Part shown: in pieces, positions 1-22,008 of the stretch
How the letters are laid out: every line of letters begins with the position of its first letter
Position numbering within the stretch: position 1 is the first letter of the stretch
Source: a virus
Length of the DNA: 22,641 nt
Direction: 5' to 3' (one strand)
IMG/VR virus record: IMGVR_UViG_3300037583_000050
Span: 1 to 22,641 of that record
Made by a program: the position numbers and the translations under genes
Notes under the pieces: model-generated
The model's input: only the letters and a program-made list of their open reading frames with translations
Database searches by the model: none
What the model was told of the DNA's origin: nothing

Positions 1-741
1 ATGGCGGGGGCAGGCGCGGCGGCGCGGTTGCATGTCCTGGCCAGAACACACCTTGGCGAGAACGCACACAGCGGGCATATATGGTTCATGTCATTGATTA
101 AGTCGAAAAAACGGGTCGCCGACCACGGCGAGGTGTTCACGCCGGAATGGCTGGTGGACGCCATGCTCGATCTCGTGAAGGATGAAGCCGAACGCATCGA
201 CTCGCGCGTTCTGGAGCCCGCCTGCGGCAGCGGAAATTTTCTCGTCCGGGTGCTGCAGCGAAAGCTGGCGAGCGTTGAGTTGAAGTTCGGAAAGTCGGCC
301 TTCGAGCGCCGGCACTTCGCGCTTCTCGGCCTGATGTGCACCTATGGCATTGAGCTTCTGGCGGACAACATCGCCGAATGCCGCGCCAATATGCTGGAAA
401 CGCTGGCCGATTACCTGCGCCTCGACGAGAGCGACGACCTTTACCGCGCCGCGTCCTACGTCCTGTCGCAGAACCTCGTGCATGGCGACGCGCTGACGAT
501 GAAGACGCATGATGGCCACCCGATCACCTTTGCCGAGTGGGGATACCTGGGCCGGGGCAAGTTCCAGCGGCGCGACTTCCGGCTCGACGTGCTGACAGGC
601 GCGTCGGCCTTCAGCGCCGAGGACTCGCTGTTCTCGCATCTCGGAAAGCATGAAATCTTCACGCCAACCAAGACCTACCCGCCCATGACGATCCGCGATC
701 TTGCCGCGCAGCTGGGGCCTGAACCGAAGGAGGTGGCATGA
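1..741 (+). CDS. N6-adenine DNA methyltransferase-like protein, first of a tandem pair (RM system)
   Basis: SAM-dependent methyltransferase-fold protein, probably the partner of the methyltransferase encoded directly downstream. The EVFTP motif (about residues 44-48) is followed by the SAM-binding motif I EPACGSGNFL (about residues 72-81) and a GIELL segment. No NPPY/NPPF catalytic motif IV is visible: after GDALT the chain runs into an FQRRDFRLDVL segment instead. It therefore looks non-catalytic on its own and may help form a heterodimer (inference). The frame is open from the ATG at base 1, but resemblance to methylases starts near the ATG at 88 (MSLIKSKKR), which is probably the true start. 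I list the whole open frame because upstream sequence is not visible. Its stop overlaps the next start as ATGA, after a strong AAGGAGG. Confidence 0.8.
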   Translation: MAGAGAAARLHVLARTHLGENAHSGHIWFMSLIKSKKRVADHGEVFTPEWLVDAMLDLVKDEAERIDSRVLEPACGSGNFLVRVLQRKLASVELKFGKSAFERRHFALLGLMCTYGIELLADNIAECRANMLETLADYLRLDESDDLYRAASYVLSQNLVHGDALTMKTHDGHPITFAEWGYLGRGKFQRRDFRLDVLTGASAFSAEDSLFSHLGKHEIFTPTKTYPPMTIRDLAAQLGPEPKEVA

Positions 742-2313
742 GCATGCAGGCCACCTTCGCCCTGCGCGGGCGCAACCCGGATGTGCTGAGCTGCATCGCC
801 AACCTCTCGAACGACGAGGTGTTCACCCCGCCCGAGTTCGCCAACCGGATGCTGGATACGCTGGCCGAGGCCTGGGCGGCGGACAACGGCGGCGCGAACA
901 TCTGGGCCGACAGCAGCGTCCGGTTCCTGGACCCCTGCACCAAGTCCGGCGTGTTCCTGCGCGAGATCACGCGGCGGCTGGTGAAAGGGCTGGAGCCGGA
1001 AATCCCCGACCTGCAGGAGCGGGTGGATCACATCCTGACCAAACAGGTCTTTGGCATCGGCATCACCCGGCTGACGGCCATGCTGGCGCGGCGCAGCGTC
1101 TATTGCTCGAAACACGCGACGGGGCCGCACTCCATCGCGAGGAGCTTCGACAACGACGATGGCAACATCTGGTTCGAGAGGACCGAGCACACTTGGGTGA
1201 AGGGCAGGTGCAAGTTCTGCGGGGCAAGCCAATCCACCTATGACCGCGGCGAGGGCATGGAAACCCATGCCTACGCGTTCATCCATACAGACGACATCAA
1301 GGCTCGCATGGCCGAGCTGTTCGGAGGCGACATGCAGTTTGACGTGATTATCGGCAATCCGCCGTATCAGTTGGCAAGCGACGGCGGGACGCGCGATGTC
1401 CCCATCTACCACAAATTTGTCGAACAAGCGAAAGCGTTGCAGCCCCGTTATTTGACCATGGTAATTCCGTCACGGTGGATGGCAGGGGGACTAGGCTTGT
1501 CTGAATTTAGAAGAGCCATGCTTGAGGATCAAAGAATTCGTGAGTTGGTCGATTACCAAAATGCCGCAGACATCTTTCCTTCGGTGGGGATTAACGGAGG
1601 AGCGTGCTATTTTCTCTGGGACGCAAACTATAACGGAGATTGTCGCTTTTCCAGCGTGCGTGGGAAAGAAGTTTGGGGCCCCGCGGTCCGCCACCTGAAC
1701 GAGTTTGATGTTCTCGTTCGCGACATTCATGGACTTGAGATATTGAGAAAGGTTCTCTCCCATCGGGAAGAGTCCATAAACACTATTTTGGCGAGAGATA
1801 AGGAGTTCGGATGGACTTCGAATTTCGATGGGTTCCACGATCAAGAACGCGATGGTGACGTGGCACTATACTACATTCGAAAAATGAAACGGCTCGTTGG
1901 TTACATTGAGCGGGAGAAAGTGACTAAGAGCGAGCACTTGATAGACAAATGGAAGGTTCTAGTTCCCGCTGTCGGCTCAGGGCGCGAAAGAGAGCGAAGC
2001 GGGGTCGATCTAGTTCTTGGACCTTCGCTGATAGCGCCCCCGCCATCAGTTTGCACGCAATCGTACTTATTCTTTTTTGCGGAATCGCGAGAAGCTGCTG
2101 AGAGTATTCAATCGTACTATGCGACGCGTTTTTTCCGTTTCTTGGTGTCTCTTCGTAAGATTTCGCAGCACGCAACACATTCTACTTATCAGTGGGTACC
2201 AAAACAGTCTTGGGATCGAACTTGGACCGACGCGGAACTTTATCAGAAATATGAGCTTAGCGCCGATGAAATCACGCATATTGAGTCTTTGATTCGTCCG
2301 ATGGAATTGGGGA

Positions 2314-2321
<8 letters not shown>
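738..2321 (+). CDS. Eco57I-like N6-adenine DNA methyltransferase of RM system
   Basis: This 527-residue protein is the catalytic modification subunit. It shows EVFTP (residues 27-31), a motif I variant FLDPCTKSGVFL (63-74), and the adenine-methyltransferase motif IV NPPY (207-210) within DVIIGNPPYQL. C123 and the C158-x2-C161 pair may form part of a metal-binding insert. The C-terminal half should hold the target recognition domain and ends with a WTDAELYQKYEL-type segment seen in this family. The ATG at 738 has AAGGAGG seven bases upstream at 727-733 and overlaps the previous stop. Base composition drops from about base 1330, right at motif IV, to about 2320 (29/60 G+C in 2041-2100 against 41/60 in 901-960). 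This fits replacement of the specificity half by recombination. The next gene overlaps by 8 bases. Confidence 0.9.
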
Positions 2322-4854
<2,533 letters not shown>

Positions 4855-4858
4855 CCAC

Positions 4859-5265
4859 TCATTCCGGCGACCGGCTGGTTCGTGCAGACACGCCTCGGGT
4901 TGCACCTTGCTTCCACCACTCCACCGGAAACCCGTCCAGCAGCCGCCTGAGTGTCACCTCCGGCCCCTGCTTCCCGTCCAGGATCGCCTCGACGATATCG
5001 GGCGCAAGCAGCGTGAGGCGCAGGACCCGCGTCATGTAGGACGGCGCGATGCCCTCGCGCTCGGCAAGCTCGTTGATGGTGGCGAACTCGCCTGATTCCA
5101 GCATCTTTTTCCAGCGAAATGCTCGCGCCAGCGCCTTGACGAGGGTGTTGTCGGTCCGGCGCTGAACCGGTGCGCCATCGGGGAGCTGCACCTCCTTGCG
5201 CCCGCCTCGTTTGATCACGCGGAACGGGACATGCAGCGTGATGATGTCGGGTCTGGCGGCCGGTT

Positions 5266-5269
<4 letters not shown>
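4859..5269 (-). CDS. Small HTH protein downstream of serine recombinase
   Basis: A protein of 136 residues with a plausible helix-turn-helix, roughly FATINELAEREGIAPSYMTR followed by VLRLTLLAPDIVEAIL (about residues 66-102). This resembles the HTH of ParB/KorB-like proteins. The longer open frame to 5425 was rejected because its extra 52 residues are an arginine-rich shadow of the recombinase gene. The chosen ATG (5267-5269) overlaps the recombinase TGA as ATGA, so translation is probably coupled. It may regulate or assist the recombinase operon (inference). Its stop lies only four bases from the stop of the convergent helicase gene. Confidence 0.7.
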
Positions 5270-6568
<1,299 letters not shown>

Positions 6569-6572
<4 letters not shown>

Positions 6573-7018
6573 GCGCGTCTCCGCGACTTCAACCCGAAGA
6601 ACACCCAGCCGTTCCAGCGGGTGCCGGTGATGGCGCGGGCGATGGCCGACAGAGACTTGTAGGGACGGCCCTGCCACTCGAAGCCCTCGGCGGTCACGGT
6701 GACGACATGCCCGATGCCCTGCCATTCGCGGATCAGCCGCGTGCCGGCGATGGGCTTGAAATCGGCCCGGACTCGGCTCTTCTTGCGGTCGCCGCCGTCG
6801 AGTTCCTCGCCGAGCCTTTCCAGCCGCTTCACCGTCTCTGGCTTCAACCCGCCATAGGCGAGTTCCTGGATGCGGTAGGCCAAGCGGCTTTCGAGGTAAC
6901 GCCGGTTGAAAGGCGGCGGCTCGCTGTCGAACAGCTCGCGCCACTTGGCCTTCAGCTCGGGCGTCTTCATGGTTTTGAGCGCGGCCAGGCGCGCGGGGAT
7001 GGCATCATGCGTGTTCAT
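6569..7018 (-). CDS. DUF2924 family protein
   Basis: A 149-residue protein matching the DUF2924 family, which commonly sits directly upstream of a serine recombinase in alphaproteobacterial elements. Recognisable features are an N-terminal [35 protein letters not shown] region, written here in parts as [25 protein letters not shown], and a later [10 protein letters not shown]. The C-terminus carries [19 protein letters not shown] and FFGLK, which look like a small DNA-binding or DNA-modification-associated fold. The molecular function is not known; a helper role in recombination is inferred from gene order only. Start ATG (7016-7018) overlaps the upstream stop as ATGA, and its own stop overlaps the recombinase start as ATGA. 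Confidence 0.85.
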
Positions 7019-16224: not shown

Positions 16225-18804
16225 ATGATCGATCTCAACGATGTGCCGACCCCACGCGGCCGCCATGACCTCGGCGGCATCCGCGCCCGACTGGCCGCGA
16301 CCGCCGCCGACTGGCTGCCTGGACTCTTCCCCGAGGCGCGGCGCGCGTCCGATGGCCGATCCCTGCGCTGCGCCGATCTCTCGGGCCGCCGGCCGAGGAA
16401 AGTGGGCTCCTGCGTCATCCATCTCGACGGACCCTATGCCGGCTGGGGCTTCGATCATGCCACGGGCGAGCGCGCGGGGCCCATCGACCTGATCGCGCAG
16501 GCAACCGGGCTTTGCGATGGCACGCTCTTCAAGGAAGCGGCGCGGCTTGCGCGCATGGAGATGCCTCCTCGTAGGCCTGTGCCACGCCCGAAGCCCGATC
16601 ATTCCGCCGAGATCGCCCGGATCCTCGCGGGCGCCGTTCCGCTCGCCGGCACCCCGGGCGAGGCCTATCTGCGTGCCCGCGGTCTCACCGATCCCAACTC
16701 GCCCGACCTTCTGTTCCATCCCGATCTCGCGGACTTCGAAAGCCGCCGCGGCTGGCCCGGGCTGGTGGCCATTCTGCGTCTTGCCGACGGAGAACCCGCG
16801 CCGGGCATTCACCGGACCTTCCTGCTGGACGACGGAAGTGCGAAGGCGCCCGCCGGCAAGAAGATGCTGGGATCGGTCAGGGGCGCAGCCCTCCGTCTGT
16901 TCCCGTTGGCCGAAGACGGCCATCTCGGCGTGGCCGAGGGGATCGAGACCGCGCTGGCCGCGCATGCGCTCTTCGGCGTGCCCGTCTGGGCGGCGCTCTC
17001 CGCCGACGGGCTGGCTCGGTTCCAGTGGCCCGAGGGCACCCGGCGGGTCACCATCTTCGCCGATGCGGGCGATGCCGGCCGTCAGGCGGCGGCCACGCTG
17101 GCGGACAGGCTCAACCTCGCTGACATCCCGAACGCGATCGTCCGTCCGCTCCATGGCGACGACTTCAACGACGATCTGCTGCGGGGGGCAACGGCCGGGG
17201 ATTACGCGCGGGACACCGGGGAAACTGACCGCACCGTGGACGCCGTTGCTGAAGATGAGCGCGACGCGGCAAAGGTCATGCCCGCCACCGACGATCCCGG
17301 CACCCTGATCGCCGCCGCCGAGGCGCTCACCAACCCGCCCGACATCGAGGCCCTCGGCCGGCTGCTCGGGCGCGTCGCGCTTGCCCGGCTCGAGCCCTTG
17401 CCTGAGCGCCAGGTTCTCTCGCGCATCAAGGCGGCCACCGGCATTGGTGTCGCCATCCTCGAAAGACAGCTTGGCGAGTTGCGCCGGCGCGTGAATGTCA
17501 CCGGCGATCCCAACGCCCGGATTCCGAAGCCCCTGTGGTTCAACCGCCTGCTGCTCGACATGGCCGGCACGCCCGAACGCAACGAGGCCAATGTCATCAC
17601 CGCGCTCTCCTCCGACCCGGCCTTCGCCGGCGTGCTCGCCTTCGACGAGTTCGCCCAAGGCATCGTCGTGCGCCAGCCGCTGCCGTGGGACACGGCATCC
17701 TCTAGCTTCCCGCGCCCCTGGGAGGATGCCGACGACATCCGCACCGCCGAATGGCTGCAGCTGCGCGGCATCAATGTCGCCCCCGCCGTGGTCGGCCGCG
17801 CCGTCGGCGCCGTCGCCCGTGAAATCCGCATCCACCCGGTTCGCGACTGGCTCGACACCCTGAAATGGGACGGCACGCCCCGGATCGAGACCTGGACCAG
17901 CACCTATCTCGGCGCCGAGCCCACCGCATTCAACCACACCATCGGCGCGCTCTGGCTGATCTCGGCCGTCGCCCGCATCTACCGCCCCGGCGTGAAGGCC
18001 GACCACATGCTGATCCTCGAGGGGCCACAGGGCGCGCGCAAGTCCACTGCGATCAAGGTGCTGGCCGGCGAGGAGTGGTTCACCGACGAGTTGCCCGAGC
18101 TCGGCTCCAAGGACGCGGCGCTGCACATGCAGGGCGTCTGGATCGTGGAGATCGCCGAACTCGACGCAATCGGCCGCGCCGAGGTCTCGCGCATCAAGGC
18201 GTTCCTGACCCGCACCACCGACCGCTTTCGCCCGCCCTATGGCCGCTACACCGTCGAGGTGCCGCGCCAATGCGTCTTCGCCGGCACCGTGAACCCCGAC
18301 ACCTATCTGCGCGACGAGACCGGCAACCGCCGCTTCTGGCCCCTGCGCTGCGGCACCATCGACATCGCGGCGCTTGCCCGCGACCGCGACCAGCTCTGGG
18401 CCGAGGCCGTTCACCGTTTCCGCGCCGGCGCGATCTGGTGGATCGACGATCCGGAGCTGTTGGCAGAAGCCCGCGAGGAGCAGGATCGCCGGTATCAGGC
18501 AGATGCCTGGGATGACCTTATCGAGCACTGGTTGACCCACGATATCCGCACGGTCTCCGACGGGTACCCTGACTACGGCAATTCCCGGACGGAGAGCGTG
18601 CCGCGCCCCGAGTCGCTGGCCGACGTGTCGGTCGGCGAGATCCTCGAGGAAGCCATCGGGCTCGAGCCCGGGAGATGGACCCGGGGCGACCAGATGCGGG
18701 TGTCGGCCTATCTCAAGGCGAACGGCTGGGTGCGGTATCGGAGGCGGGATGGGGGTGGGCGCGAGGCGTCGCGGGAGTGGCGGTATCGGAGGGAAGATAG
18801 GTAG
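16225..18804 (+). CDS. Toprim primase fused to VapE/D5-type helicase
   Basis: An 859-residue replication protein. The N-terminal half holds a Toprim-like catalytic core: E238 in VAEGIETALAA and the DxxD pair D280/D283 in IFADAGDAGRQAA, as in phage primases with a DUF7146-type arrangement. The C-terminal half is a virulence-associated E (VapE) SF3-like ATPase: Walker A EGPQGARKST (K606) and a Walker B-like WIVEIAELD. Arginine-rich stretches follow, including RFRPPYGR and FAGTVNPDTYL. It probably primes and unwinds the element's DNA. GAGGGGG precedes the ATG at 16225. The operon ends here, followed by stem-loops and a convergent defence cassette. Confidence 0.9.
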   Translation: MIDLNDVPTPRGRHDLGGIRARLAATAADWLPGLFPEARRASDGRSLRCADLSGRRPRKVGSCVIHLDGPYAGWGFDHATGERAGPIDLIAQATGLCDGTLFKEAARLARMEMPPRRPVPRPKPDHSAEIARILAGAVPLAGTPGEAYLRARGLTDPNSPDLLFHPDLADFESRRGWPGLVAILRLADGEPAPGIHRTFLLDDGSAKAPAGKKMLGSVRGAALRLFPLAEDGHLGVAEGIETALAAHALFGVPVWAALSADGLARFQWPEGTRRVTIFADAGDAGRQAAATLADRLNLADIPNAIVRPLHGDDFNDDLLRGATAGDYARDTGETDRTVDAVAEDERDAAKVMPATDDPGTLIAAAEALTNPPDIEALGRLLGRVALARLEPLPERQVLSRIKAATGIGVAILERQLGELRRRVNVTGDPNARIPKPLWFNRLLLDMAGTPERNEANVITALSSDPAFAGVLAFDEFAQGIVVRQPLPWDTASSSFPRPWEDADDIRTAEWLQLRGINVAPAVVGRAVGAVAREIRIHPVRDWLDTLKWDGTPRIETWTSTYLGAEPTAFNHTIGALWLISAVARIYRPGVKADHMLILEGPQGARKSTAIKVLAGEEWFTDELPELGSKDAALHMQGVWIVEIAELDAIGRAEVSRIKAFLTRTTDRFRPPYGRYTVEVPRQCVFAGTVNPDTYLRDETGNRRFWPLRCGTIDIAALARDRDQLWAEAVHRFRAGAIWWIDDPELLAEAREEQDRRYQADAWDDLIEHWLTHDIRTVSDGYPDYGNSRTESVPRPESLADVSVGEILEEAIGLEPGRWTRGDQMRVSAYLKANGWVRYRRRDGGGREASREWRYRREDR

Positions 18805-18826
18805 GCTCGTGATGAGGCGGCAAACG

Positions 18827-18851
18827 GTCAAGGCCGCACTTTGGTCTTGAC
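18827..18851. terminator. Stem-loop between convergent operons, possible terminator
   Basis: GTCAAGGCC (18827-18835) pairs with GGTCTTGAC (18843-18851) over nine positions, one a G-T wobble, around a 7-base loop. It lies 22 bases past the primase-helicase stop and before the convergent CD-NTase gene ends. There is no T-run on either strand, so if it terminates, it is not a canonical rho-independent site. It may instead protect mRNA ends. Confidence 0.4.
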
Positions 18852-18873
18852 ATCTCTGTATCCTGATGTGTCT

Positions 18874-18902
18874 GGTGGGATGCGGCACTCGCCGCAGACA
18901 CC
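18874..18902. repeat. Second stem-loop in the convergent intergenic region
   Basis: TGCGGC (18881-18886) and GCCGCA (18891-18896) form a perfect 6-base stem with loop ACTC. GGTG (18874-18877) and CACC (18899-18902) can extend it past an internal bulge. Another short stem, CCTTTT/AAAAGG, lies at 18933-18948. No gene is seen in the 229 bases between 18805 and 19033. The role may be termination or mRNA stabilisation for either operon. Confidence 0.35.
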
Positions 18903-19033
18903 TACCCTTAGGTCGATTTGATATGCCAACGCCCTTTTGGGGAAAAGGAGGGAGTCGCCGGATTACACGCCAGGAAGCCAATACAGCCTATCTTGTGGCG
19001 CGATCAATCGAGGGCGTACACCAAATGTCAGAG

Positions 19034-19933
19034 TTACCGATGCCCGCTGTTCCAGTAGCGCCGCACAGCTGCGAGAAACGTCTGATAGTCCTGTATGTTC
19101 CAGCAGACATCTGAGTTCTCTCGAATCAACCAGTAGAGATCATTCGCGCAGGACAGTTCGTTTGCATTGCATCGCTCCAGCCAATACAGGTAGTTCTCGA
19201 ATGTCTGCTGGTATCCTGCAACGAAGTTCTGGTTCGGGACACTCCACAACATTCCCTCGAGAAAGTATGACGGCGCGACGCCTTTCTCAAGGAAGCCCTC
19301 GTCGACCATTGCGTTGCGCATGTTCTTCAGCACCCGGACGTTCGGCTTGAAACGGTTGCTGGTAGCTTGATGCTTCGATGTGCAGTTCTGCTTGTGCTGC
19401 CTTGGGAAGTTGACAATCCGGTCCCCGTCAGCCGTGATGAACGATATCCCCACATGATAACGGTTATCCGAAGGCGAATGATATGAGGTGTACCGATGGT
19501 GCTCGATGCATGCCAAAACGTCTGCGTTGCGCCGATTTCCTTCCCCCGGAACGGCAATTGCTTTTCGACCCGGGGTCACACCGCCGCCGAAATTCACCCT
19601 CAGCCAAGCTACTACTTCAGATTTGAATTGCTGGAAGCCGTATTTTGCGGGTGAGCGGTTCGCTTCATACGCTTCCTTCTCCGCTGGATCGAGCCCAGAT
19701 ATATCGCTGTTGAAGACGTCGGTTAGACAGATCACCACATCTACATCGCTCTCGGAGCCTCGGACATTTGTGTCGTTCCCATAGGAGCCCTGGAGGAAAA
19801 TGTCGATCCCGCGTCCTGCATAAGGAGCATCAGGATGCTCGAGCACTGACTTTATCGACTGGTAGGTCGCTGCGGATTGCTGCTGCGACCCGACATGGGA
19901 CCAAGTTTCAAGCTGGTTCTCTGAAATCGCCAT
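19034..19933 (-). CDS. CBASS CD-NTase (cyclic oligonucleotide synthase)
   Basis: A 299-residue cGAS/DncV-like nucleotidyltransferase that should make a cyclic nucleotide signal on phage infection. It shows the GS motif (QGSYGN, residues 48-53), the catalytic pair SDVD (D63 and D65), and a likely third aspartate D138 (RNADVL). PSYFLEGMLWSVPN (about 221-234) is typical of the C-terminal helical part. I prefer the ATG at 19933, preceded by GAGG with six-base spacing, over the upstream TTG at 19945. The gene starts 8 bases after the patatin stop, so they form one operon. No Cap2/Cap3 genes are present, which points to a short type I CBASS. The clade and product cannot be told by eye. Confidence 0.93.
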   Translation of the reverse strand: MAISENQLETWSHVGSQQQSAATYQSIKSVLEHPDAPYAGRGIDIFLQGSYGNDTNVRGSESDVDVVICLTDVFNSDISGLDPAEKEAYEANRSPAKYGFQQFKSEVVAWLRVNFGGGVTPGRKAIAVPGEGNRRNADVLACIEHHRYTSYHSPSDNRYHVGISFITADGDRIVNFPRQHKQNCTSKHQATSNRFKPNVRVLKNMRNAMVDEGFLEKGVAPSYFLEGMLWSVPNQNFVAGYQQTFENYLYWLERCNANELSCANDLYWLIRENSDVCWNIQDYQTFLAAVRRYWNSGHR

Positions 19934-19941
19934 TTCCCACC

Positions 19942-20865
19942 TCAACTAAACAAAACGCCACGAATTTCGTTCTCGTAGCGACCGAAGGATTCACCGCCCT
20001 GTTGACGCAGCAGGTTCAGCTTTTTCAAATCATGCTCAAATAAGTCAGTCGCCATTTCCGGTTTGTTGAAATGGTCGCTAACCCGAGCCGTCGGCACGGT
20101 CGCAAACAAGAGCTTGCGCAGTTGATCCATTGATGCCGTATTCACTTCGAGCGTCTTCTGCAGAAGTTGCACCAACCAGAAGCGGCGTTTCATGCGTTCG
20201 AAGAATGGGTAGCGCGGTTCCGGGTAATGCCCGCAACCTATGCTCAGTACACGGCAATCAGTCGGTGCGAAACCAAGCGGCCCGGTGGCATCAGCCAATG
20301 CGTAGAGCGCAGGATTGTTCGCCACATAGCCGCCGTCGAAGAGCTCGACATCGTTTCCCGCGCTCGTTTTCACGATCTTGCGCTCGAAAAACGGGTACGC
20401 TGAACAAGATGCTTCCACCGCGTCGGCAAGCGTGCAGCCGAAGCCCGGAACGAATGTAGCTCGCCTGCCGTGTGCCTGGGTCTGCATGCTCTTGAAGATC
20501 ATCGGCGTCTCGAGTTGCCATTTCGTAGCCACCACACCAAGGCCAGTTCGAACCGTGTCGAAACCATCCTCTCCGAAGACCTTTTCCCCTACGGCGCGAA
20601 GACGCCGCGTGCGCTCGCTCGGTTTCGTGGCTTGCATAATATGCGGGACGTGCTCCCGATAGAGGCAATGGATTTCTTCGACCGTCTTTCCGGTAGCCAA
20701 CAGTGTGGCGATGATCGAGCCGGTACTTGTCCCGAAGATCAAATCAAAGCTCTCGTGTATGGGCTGAGGAAGCACCGCTTCGACCTCGGCCAGCACTCCG
20801 AGGGAATAGAAGCCTTTCGCTCCTCCACCGTCCAAGCTCAAGATCCTGCAAATGCCTTCTGGCAT
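19942..20865 (-). CDS. capV: CBASS effector, patatin-like phospholipase (CapV-type)
   Basis: A 307-residue patatin-family lipase. It has the oxyanion loop GGGAKG (residues 13-18), nucleophile elbow GTSTG with S47, and the catalytic DGG with D177, making up the patatin Ser-Asp dyad. In CBASS such CapV proteins are switched on by the cyclic nucleotide from the partner CD-NTase and degrade membrane phospholipids, killing the infected cell. I chose the ATG at 20865 because conserved sequence starts at ICRILSLDGGG just after it and a TTGGAG lies ten bases upstream. The longer frame to 20991 adds 42 unconserved residues. The gene precedes the CD-NTase and lies on the strand opposite to the replication operon. 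Local G+C is clearly below that of the primase gene. Confidence 0.93.
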   Translation of the reverse strand: MPEGICRILSLDGGGAKGFYSLGVLAEVEAVLPQPIHESFDLIFGTSTGSIIATLLATGKTVEEIHCLYREHVPHIMQATKPSERTRRLRAVGEKVFGEDGFDTVRTGLGVVATKWQLETPMIFKSMQTQAHGRRATFVPGFGCTLADAVEASCSAYPFFERKIVKTSAGNDVELFDGGYVANNPALYALADATGPLGFAPTDCRVLSIGCGHYPEPRYPFFERMKRRFWLVQLLQKTLEVNTASMDQLRKLLFATVPTARVSDHFNKPEMATDLFEHDLKKLNLLRQQGGESFGRYENEIRGVLFS

Positions 20866-20893
20866 CGGAAGCACGCTCCAAGTGTTATCCAGA

Positions 20894-20923
20894 TATAGTG
20901 TATGGTGCGAAGGTCGTATGCAA
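20894..20923 (-). promoter_or_regulatory. Possible promoter of the CBASS operon
   Basis: On the minus strand, TTGCAT (20918-20923) resembles a -35 element. ACTATA (20894-20899, spacer 18) or TACACT (20897-20902, spacer 15) could be the -10. It lies 30 to 60 bases before the patatin ATG in an AT-richer stretch. The match is only moderate. Confidence 0.3.
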
Positions 20924-20963
20924 GGGGTAGCGGTGCATCTTCGAACGGCTGTTTTGTGATGTT

Positions 20964-20978
20964 GTTCCAGGTGAGTTC
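20964..20978. promoter_or_regulatory. Possible LexA-like box upstream of the CBASS operon
   Basis: GTTC-CAGGTGA-GTTC fits the bare GTTC-N7-GTTC alphaproteobacterial LexA pattern, about 100 bases before the patatin ATG. The spacer is less AT-rich than usual and the site lies upstream of the proposed -35. A chance match is quite possible in a window this size. Confidence 0.3.
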
Positions 20979-21060
20979 GTTCTCGTACCAACGTCCGCTC
21001 CGCGCCCTTCGATGGCGTCCTGTGTTTACATGAAGCTGTCCGGCTTTAGTCATGGCGTTC

Positions 21061-21359
21061 GGTCCCAACCTCGCCGGTGGTCCCAACGTGGTCCCAACCT
21101 CTGGAGGGGGTTGGGGACACGAAAAACCTTTCAAAAACAACGCTGTCCCCAACCTCACCCTGTGGCCCCAACCTTTTTCGATACATTCATGAGGGAGAAA
21201 GAAAAAGGTCGGGAACATGTTTGCTATACGAAAGGAGTAGGACCCCCGTTGGGGACACCGAGGTTGGGACCACTTTCACGCAAATCGTTGATCTGCAATA
21301 ATAATAAGCGGTCCCAACCTCCGAAAAGGTTGGGGTCAGGCTGCCAGAAGGTTGGGACC
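21061..21359. repeat. Cluster of eleven CCCAACC/GGTTGGG motifs, iteron-like
   Basis: No gene is seen in 20866-21486; its main content is this cluster. Forward cores (CCCAACC or CCCAACG) lie at 21064, 21082, 21093, 21148, 21167 and 21313. Reverse cores (GGTTGGG or CGTTGGG) lie at 21109, 21247, 21262, 21328 and 21350. Most sit in a longer GGTCCCAACC or GTCCCCAACC unit. Some spacings are close to helical turns (11 and 22 bases). Arms combine into strong hairpins, for example 21109-21119 with 21144-21154, a perfect 11-base match. This could be iterons of a replication origin, multiple operators, or a structured RNA. Confidence 0.8.
21260..21321. other. Candidate replication-origin core: 12-base inverted repeat around an AT-rich island
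   Basis: GAGGTTGGGACC (21260-21271) and GGTCCCAACCTC (21310-21321) are perfect inverted arms of 12 bases. The 38 bases between them contain an AT-rich run with ATAATAATAA at about 21298-21307. Inverted iterons beside an easily melted stretch, near primase-helicase genes, is the layout of many phage and plasmid origins. The assignment is an inference from structure alone. Confidence 0.4.
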
Positions 21360-21407
21360 GACAGCTTCGGGCGCGCGTTCCGCCCAGTCCATGGCTCCTG
21401 CGCGGAT

Positions 21408-21440
21408 TTTGCTTTGGGCCCGGTACACGGGCTGCTATAT
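21408..21440 (+). promoter_or_regulatory. Possible promoter and operator before the RuvC-like gene
   Basis: A TTTGCT (21408-21413) and a GCTATA (21434-21439) could be weak -35 and -10 elements, with a spacer of 20 that is longer than ideal. Between them, GCCCG (21418-21422) and CGGGC (21428-21432) form an inverted repeat that could be an operator. The RuvC-like ATG follows 47 bases later. Confidence 0.25.
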
Positions 21441-21486
21441 CTGGTGGTGACCGAAGCCGAAGGCCCACCATCCGTGAGCCTTCACC

Positions 21487-22008
21487 ATGAACACCCAGAC
21501 CCCCACCGCCACCGGGCGCGCCGCTCAGGCGCCTGTGCCCCTTTCCACCGTCCTCGCCCTTGACCTCGGCACCAACGCCGGCTGGGCGCTGCGCGGCCAT
21601 GACGGTCTGATCACCACCGGCACGGTCAGCTTCCGCCCCGGCCGCTTCGACGGCGGCGGCATGCGGTATCTGCGCTTTACCAATTGGCTGACCGAGATCG
21701 ACCGGCTGTCGGGGCCGATCGAGGCGATCTGGTTCGAGGAAGTCCGTCGCCACGCTGGCACCGACGCGGCCCATGTTTACGGCGGGCTCATGGCCACGCT
21801 GACCGCATGGGCCGAGCTTCGCGGCGTGCCCTACGAGGGCGTGCCTGTCGGCACCATCAAGCGCCATGCGACCGGCAAGGGCAACGCGCCCAAGCACGCC
21901 ATGATCGACGCTGCCCGCGCCCGGGGCTTCGACCCGGCCGACGACAACGAGGCCGATGCCATCGCCATCCTCATGTGGGCGATCGAAACCAAGGGAGGGC
22001 TGGCATGA
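21487..22008 (+). CDS. RuvC-like Holliday junction resolvase (phage type)
   Basis: A 173-residue RNase H-fold nuclease. The acidic residues expected for RuvC are visible: D26 in LALDLGTNAGWAL, E84/E85 in IWFEEVRRH, and D153 and D157 in the DDNEADAIAI helix. A conserved GTIKRHATGKGNAPKHAM segment matches phage-type RuvC proteins. It should resolve branched DNA made by the Sak4-like/Cas4-like recombination genes. No strong ribosome binding site precedes the ATG at 21487. The stop overlaps the next start as ATGA. Confidence 0.88.
   Translation: MNTQTPTATGRAAQAPVPLSTVLALDLGTNAGWALRGHDGLITTGTVSFRPGRFDGGGMRYLRFTNWLTEIDRLSGPIEAIWFEEVRRHAGTDAAHVYGGLMATLTAWAELRGVPYEGVPVGTIKRHATGKGNAPKHAMIDAARARGFDPADDNEADAIAILMWAIETKGGLA

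Follow-up and report, generated by a model that had tools for sequence, protein, structure and literature searches.

This locus raises the question of why copies of one short motif, in both orientations, are packed into about 300 bases beside a set of CBASS genes. The window, meaning the whole stretch of DNA analysed here, corresponds to a 22,641-base virus record in IMG/VR and is a linear fragment. The replication module lies 5′ of the motif array and encodes a Sak4-like protein, a Cas4-like exonuclease, a Dda-like helicase and a Toprim-VapE primase-helicase, as assigned by Pfam and PHROG. After VapE come the CBASS genes on the opposite strand, the array, a RuvC-like resolvase and a DUF6362 protein. 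The genes bordering the array are as follows.

16225–18804, + strand: VapE-type Toprim primase-helicase, 859 aa, the proposed initiator (Pfam Toprim_3, DUF7146, VapE-like; PHROG DNA helicase/primase; sequence and fold match to PriRep1, PDB 7pds)
19034–20991, − strand: CBASS cargo between VapE and the array, comprising a CD-NTase (19034–19945; PADLOC cyclase, 2e-122) and a patatin phospholipase (19942–20991; PADLOC phospholipase effector, 2e-148); absent or replaced in other loci
21487–22008, + strand: RuvC-like Holliday junction resolvase, the usual right neighbour of the array (PHROG 159)

Two other features of the window were noted. Positions 1–7018, which probably serve integration or hold cargo, encode an Eco57I-like methyltransferase and a large helicase/restriction-like protein, together with a serine recombinase accompanied by a DUF2924 protein. 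Directly before the RuvC start codon, at 21440–21490, there is a conserved leader hairpin, GCCGAAGGCCCAC...GTGAGCCTTC, that relatives also have; GCCGAAGG and GCCTTC are both present in 80 of 102 loci, which span different iteron classes. Its role is possibly translational control.

A sequence-only reading of the window had counted eleven CCCAACC motifs in 300 bases. That number holds for the CCCAAC core but not for the exact heptamer. Exact CCCAACC occurs nine times on the two strands together, all at 21064–21356 and nowhere else in the 22.6 kb window. The core has 14 copies in the window, of which 11 fall inside 21061–21359 (299 bases), six on the + strand (21064, 21082, 21093, 21148, 21167 and 21313) and five on the − strand (21110, 21248, 21263, 21329 and 21351). 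Nine of these extend to CCCAACC and two to CCCAACG. The density is far above that in simulations: dinucleotide shuffles of the whole window contained 2.9 ± 1.5 exact copies and never reached nine, and the richest 300-bp stretch held 3 exact copies across 2000 Markov simulations of the window, or 4 across 20000 based on the local composition, versus 9 observed. Direct and inverted copies are both present, as the same reading had said, but they are not a random mix. The sites form two roughly mirror-image blocks flanking a 72-bp AT-richer core. The iterons below are read from the sequence.

21061–21071, + strand: iteron 1, GGTCCCAACCT, left block
21079–21089, + strand: iteron 2, GGTCCCAACGT, left block
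21090–21100, + strand: iteron 3, GGTCCCAACCT, left block
21108–21119, − strand: iteron 4, TGTCCCCAACCC, left block
21144–21155, + strand: iteron 5, TGTCCCCAACCT, left block
21164–21174, + strand: iteron 6, GGCCCCAACCT, left block
21175–21246, no strand: AT-richer core and putative site of melting; contains one degenerate iteron, ~21201–21216 (AT ~56%, versus 39% in the left block and 46% in the right block)
21247–21257, − strand: iteron 7, TGTCCCCAACG, right block
21261–21271, − strand: iteron 8, GGTCCCAACCT, right block
21310–21320, + strand: iteron 9, GGTCCCAACCT, right block
21327–21337, − strand: iteron 10, GACCCCAACCT, right block
21349–21359, − strand: iteron 11, GGTCCCAACCT, right block

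The earlier statement that no gene accounts for this density fits the absence of any convincing gene here. The open reading frames overlapping the array (21012–21563, + strand; 20838–21218, − strand) are mechanical only, and homologous loci are intergenic at this place. A tRNA scan was negative, a promoter and terminator scan was near chance, and a DNA-level search of the array region against phage and plasmid collections gave no matches. The mean raw GC skew flips sign at the array, but the four-fold-site skew of the flanking genes moves oppositely; as the two measures contradict each other, skew is given no weight here.

Relatives were found through protein-anchored searches (VapE, RuvC) of IMG/VR and GTDB genomes. 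An array of the same layout lies 3′ of VapE in about 130 alphaproteobacterial prophage loci from the two sources, in hosts belonging to Rhodobacterales, Acetobacteraceae, Rhodospirillales and Hyphomicrobiales. Nearly all relatives with sequence on both sides have 8–13 short repeats after VapE and before RuvC. The distance from array to RuvC is usually 70–130 bp (median 126 bp from the array end). With the slash marking the AT-richer core, the general layout is >>(>)<>> / <<(<)><<, and the dominant orientation patterns are >>><>> / <<><< and >><>> / <<<><<. The core is 67–89 bp long across arrays. In 83 arrays, AT content is 53.6% in the core, 43.5% in the iteron blocks and 34.4% in the whole locus; the core exceeds its locus in 83/83 cases, by 19 points on average, and is AT-rich only in this relative sense (54%).

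The iteron sequence itself varies by locus (GTCCCAACC, GTCCCACTT, GTCACCAACC, GTCACCACC and others). The main forms are GTCCCAACC, GTCCCAC(T/C)T, GTCACCAACC and GTCACCAC(C/T)T, and rarer ones are GTCCAACCT, GTCC(C)TACCT, GTTCCCACCT and TGGCCCCACTT. Among iterons with recognisable cores in the four main classes, 722 match the class of their own array and 7 match another. The copies within an array thus change together, as expected if they share a binding protein. Some loci depart from the usual form. L034, L180 and L192 (the last with a 2251-bp gap) have degenerate arrays; in L216 and L312 the array is dominated by GGACCCA, and L212 has no clear array of the usual kind, these three falling outside the residue rules given below. 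Downstream of the replication module, L177 (12585–13961) and L164 (15534–16862) have a gene in which a ParB-like domain is joined to a DNA methyltransferase, and a second methyltransferase gene comes after it. L218 (CP059262.1), a metagenome-assembled genome titled Exiguobacterium profundum, carries this alphaproteobacterial prophage with 80% VapE identity, and the title probably reflects a mislabelled or contaminated assembly.

The spacing between VapE and the array bears on the CBASS genes. It is below 700 bp in 87 of 149 scored loci, and below 100 bp in many loci free of cargo; in the remaining 62 of 149 more than 0.7 kb of cargo intervenes. The gap in the window is 2.3 kb because CBASS is inserted there. 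Many loci have VapE and the array side by side, and others have different cargo between them. By this comparison CBASS is incidental, one of many defence cargoes in an insertion site and not part of the origin. Its proximity to the array, which had been taken as a possible connection, is a coincidence.

The stretch between vapE and the array (18805–21060 in the window; also, for example, in L168, L165, L021, L172, L204, L025 and L339) is an insertion hotspot for defence genes. Cargo includes CBASS (the window, L014 and L026), IetAS, RmrAT, Lamassu-like LmuB and OLD-like ATPases. There are also many large proteins without a PADLOC match, such as those of 1328 aa in L018, 1139 aa in L163 and 736 aa in L213, and these are candidates for new defence systems. 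In the hotspot of L025 (9417–10328, − strand; relatives in L178, L027 and L182), a homologue of alpha-glutamyl/putrescinyl thymine pyrophosphorylase and amino acid:DNA transferase (Pfam 7e-110) is a DNA hypermodification enzyme, and it adjoins an IrrE-like peptidase protein. New anti-phage defence systems may also be sought at this insertion site between initiator and origin.

Which protein reads the iterons? The closest solved relative of the window VapE by both sequence and fold is PriRep1 with dsDNA (7pds; HMM E 1.8e-62, Foldseek E 1.9e-22). By homology, VapE meets the description of an AAA+ helicase related to SaPI/PICI Rep; that it loads itself is inferred from this homology only. Its C-terminal domain is predicted as a winged helix in AlphaFold models. 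Foldseek of the isolated C-terminal model returned no significant match, with 7pds first at E 0.15. The relevant segments of the gene are these.

18505–18792, + strand: coding sequence of the C-terminal winged-helix domain, residues 761–856, the proposed iteron reader (AlphaFold models; the iteron class tracks this segment best)
18682–18684, + strand: codon of R820, with which the predicted recognition helix (820–832) begins; R with CCAAC, K with CCAC (131/133 loci)
18703–18705, + strand: codon of S827, in the recognition helix
18739–18741, + strand: codon of R839, in the wing strand 835–841; Q with GTCACC, R/K with GTCC (134/134 loci)

The iteron class was mapped by parsimony on trees of the neighbouring proteins and of segments of VapE. 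On the tree of the last 103 VapE residues it changes 19 times, versus 29–37 times on other VapE segments. The trees of RuvC, Dda, Cas4 and Sak4 require 33, 37, 33 and 32 changes, and that of DUF6362 requires 23 from only 90 loci. As judged by these trees, the predicted winged-helix domain at the C-terminus of VapE tracks the iteron sequence better than any other gene or domain tested. The sequence-only reading had named the primase-helicase as a possible binder, and rightly so as far as covariation of its residues with the iterons goes; there are no binding data.

The association can be traced to individual residues. Residue 839 is Gln in 28/28 loci with GTCACC iterons and Arg or Lys in 106/106 others. 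Residue 820 is Arg in 75/77 loci of AAC type and Lys in 56/56 of AC type. Residue 827 is Gly in every AC-type locus and Ser, Ala or Thr in most AAC-type loci. In the models, 820 and 827 are on the third helix and 839 is on the wing strand, which is where DNA-reading residues would be expected to sit. Independent contrasts, taken on a tree built without the C-terminal part of VapE, agree in 11/11 cases for residue 839 and in ~15/16 for residue 820. The residue rule was recorded before new loci were fetched. Two new scans then supplied 53 non-redundant VapE proteins less than 97% identical to any earlier one; 39 loci with at least 5 scorable iterons could be scored, and 14 of the 53 were left unscored for having fewer than 5 standard iterons near VapE or a contig end. 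In this held-out set the 839 rule succeeded in 39/39 loci and the 820 rule in 36/39. At about 40% identity, Pseudomonas phage vB_Pae_U5 obeys both residue rules. Marinobacter phage PS3, also 40% identical, carries an array too, but its residue 839 does not obey the rule; we therefore limit the rules to the alphaproteobacterial family. Within it, matching between protein and site is well supported, in so far as comparison of sequences can establish it.

Three candidates had been offered for the cluster: iterons of the element's origin, an operator array, or a structured RNA. The evidence favours the first: very probably, a family of alphaproteobacterial tailed (pro)phages has its replication origin at this array, with the C-terminal winged helix of VapE binding the iterons. 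What the comparison of loci shows is a constant layout at a constant place, copies that change in concert, and an iteron sequence that follows residues of one predicted domain. Replication itself is inferred, without a binding or replication experiment.

Of the other readings, an operator survives best, although we judge it improbable. In this reading VapE or another phage DNA-binding protein regulates the promoter of the RuvC operon at the array, which is not an origin. In most loci the array does sit between the VapE unit and that operon, just upstream of the latter. Coevolution of domain and sites is also expected from an operator or any other VapE-binding site, and VapE binding would account for it equally well. 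However, eleven sites in two mirror blocks with an AT-richer core look like an origin rather than an operator, the covarying protein is a primase-helicase, and the related systems with such a layout are proven origins. An operator read by VapE cannot be excluded from sequence alone; an origin fits better.

It is still less likely that the association is an artefact of linkage, in which recombination exchanges the array and the 3′ end of vapE as one piece, with no functional matching. In favour of this, the two are often less than 100 bp apart in cargo-free loci, but the residue–iteron association is kept in 51/51 loci in which the array is more than 1.2 kb from the VapE stop codon. RuvC is about equally near on the other side and does not track the class, its best column reaching only 84% and 90%. 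Physical linkage is therefore not the explanation, and the signal moreover sits on a few residues of the predicted DNA-reading face.

We give very little credence to a structured RNA, either a leader or a small RNA, formed by the inverted copies. The + strand does fold far better than shuffles (z = −6.6), but any dyad-symmetric array of sites would fold likewise, and we do not count this value as evidence for an RNA because it follows from the inverted sites. An Rfam scan of the window gave no match at the gathering threshold, and base pairing predicts neither concerted change of the copies nor a match to winged-helix residues. Equally hard to credit is a partition or nuclease target, for example one recognised by the ParB-like/methyltransferase fusion that relatives encode a few kb downstream, since the tree of that protein requires 21 changes of iteron class versus 11 on the VapE C-terminal tree of nearly the same 60 loci, which disfavours it as the array binder. 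Ordinary host repeats, whose scatter through the host genome would have refuted an origin, are excluded: in ten host genomes close pairs of motifs pile up only at the prophage array in those of the GTCCCAACC class, and isolated single pairs elsewhere are at about the level of a reversed-pattern control.

Returning to the origin, we propose that it is made of about eleven iterons of 9–11 bp in two mirror-image blocks, with an AT-richer core of 70–90 bp between them. Inferring from homologous systems, the C-terminal winged helix of VapE would bind the iterons, and two VapE rings would assemble, one on each block. The rings would then melt the core and load themselves as helicase, and the Toprim domain would prime replication of the phage DNA. 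More tentatively, and with somewhat less than even confidence, we suggest that this is a natural modular code of protein–DNA specificity in which the two halves of the iteron are read by different parts of the domain, one by residue 839 of the wing and the other by residues 820 and 827 of the recognition helix, so that an initiator and its origin change class as a pair, with at least four main classes. Purely as a hypothesis, this might be driven by selection against cross-recognition between co-resident or co-infecting prophage replicons, with the iteron class acting as an incompatibility type.

The best reading is of an iteron origin like those of SaPI and PICI elements, but in tailed phages. 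In SaPI Rep helicases the C-terminal domain recognises iterons directly 3′ of rep (PMC7581432), and in PICI origins two sets of iterons flank an AT-rich region and support plasmid replication (PMC6092414). The family here shares iterons 3′ of rep in two sets around an AT-rich region (PMC7581432, PMC6092414), and, judged by homology, an AAA+ helicase initiator that would load itself and whose C-terminal domain is proposed to bind DNA, PriRep1 (7pds) being the closest solved relative. The helicase Cch2 of SCCmec and its putative origin are also similar in that a C-terminal domain binds short repeats just downstream of the gene, as is proposed here, but in that system there are only three 5-nt iterons, the helicase is of another subfamily and there is no fused Toprim primase (PMC7581432). 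Unlike SaPI and PICI elements, the phage family here encodes terminase and has the Toprim primase fused to VapE; cargo often separates rep and ori, and the iteron sequences differ. Iterons 3′ of the initiator gene, a criterion for SaPI/PICI origins, are met in the scored loci. The criterion for a satellite, namely dependence on a helper without packaging or structural genes of its own, is not met by the family: the relative L177 encodes a terminase small subunit downstream, and contigs reach 40–74 kb. This non-satellite claim covers the family, the window being a fragment, and some SaPIs also carry a TerS homologue.

The alpha protein of phage P4, in which primase and helicase are likewise fused, recognises short repeats of either orientation, as proposed here. 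P4 uses two separate sites, ori and crr; here one array per locus was seen (in loci up to 18.5 kb; whole genomes were outside the search). Iteron plasmids (RepE, TrfA and similar) have arrays of short repeats and an AT-rich region, with winged-helix readers. Their initiators are not helicases, unlike the present case, in which initiator, helicase and primase are one protein. Such plasmids are reviewed in PMC4980987.

Some more distant VapE elements have comparable arrays. Gammaproteobacterial phages with VapE-type primase-helicases (~40% identity) carry a two-block array 3′ of the VapE gene or of the next small gene, at ~5590–5870 with CTGTCCCAC iterons in Pseudomonas phage vB_Pae_U5 (L362) and at ~5215–5480 with GGTCACCCC iterons in Marinobacter phage PS3 (L363). 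The two-block origin type may be common among VapE phages. Two Acetobacteraceae plasmids have a VapE helicase with a repeat array directly downstream: the 4.3 kb Gluconobacter plasmid pGO128 (L366; 2660–2960, TAGTGCTGAA) and Roseomonas plasmid p1318-6 (L367; 5540–5900, GTGCCCACT). The former suggests that a VapE and array pair can sustain a replicon, but it is not proof, an HTH protein on pGO128 being an alternative initiator.

We found no paper containing both 'VapE' and 'iteron' in a search that covered only part of the literature. Here the proposed two-block origin belongs to elements with terminase-encoding relatives, the Toprim primase is fused to the helicase, and initiator and iterons match at the level of residues. 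The natural initiator/iteron pairs number well over 100, with specificity apparently in two or three residues, and are ready material for testing how a winged-helix helicase recognises its origin and how specificity switches in evolution. The class of origin is predictable from protein sequence, and a possible use is in compatible small replicons for Alphaproteobacteria. We found no annotated origin for this large and mostly uncultured phage family, in which a probable initiator–origin pair is now placed. The two-block iteron origin had been described as unique to phage satellites, and the present loci indicate that it also occurs in phages with packaging genes of their own.
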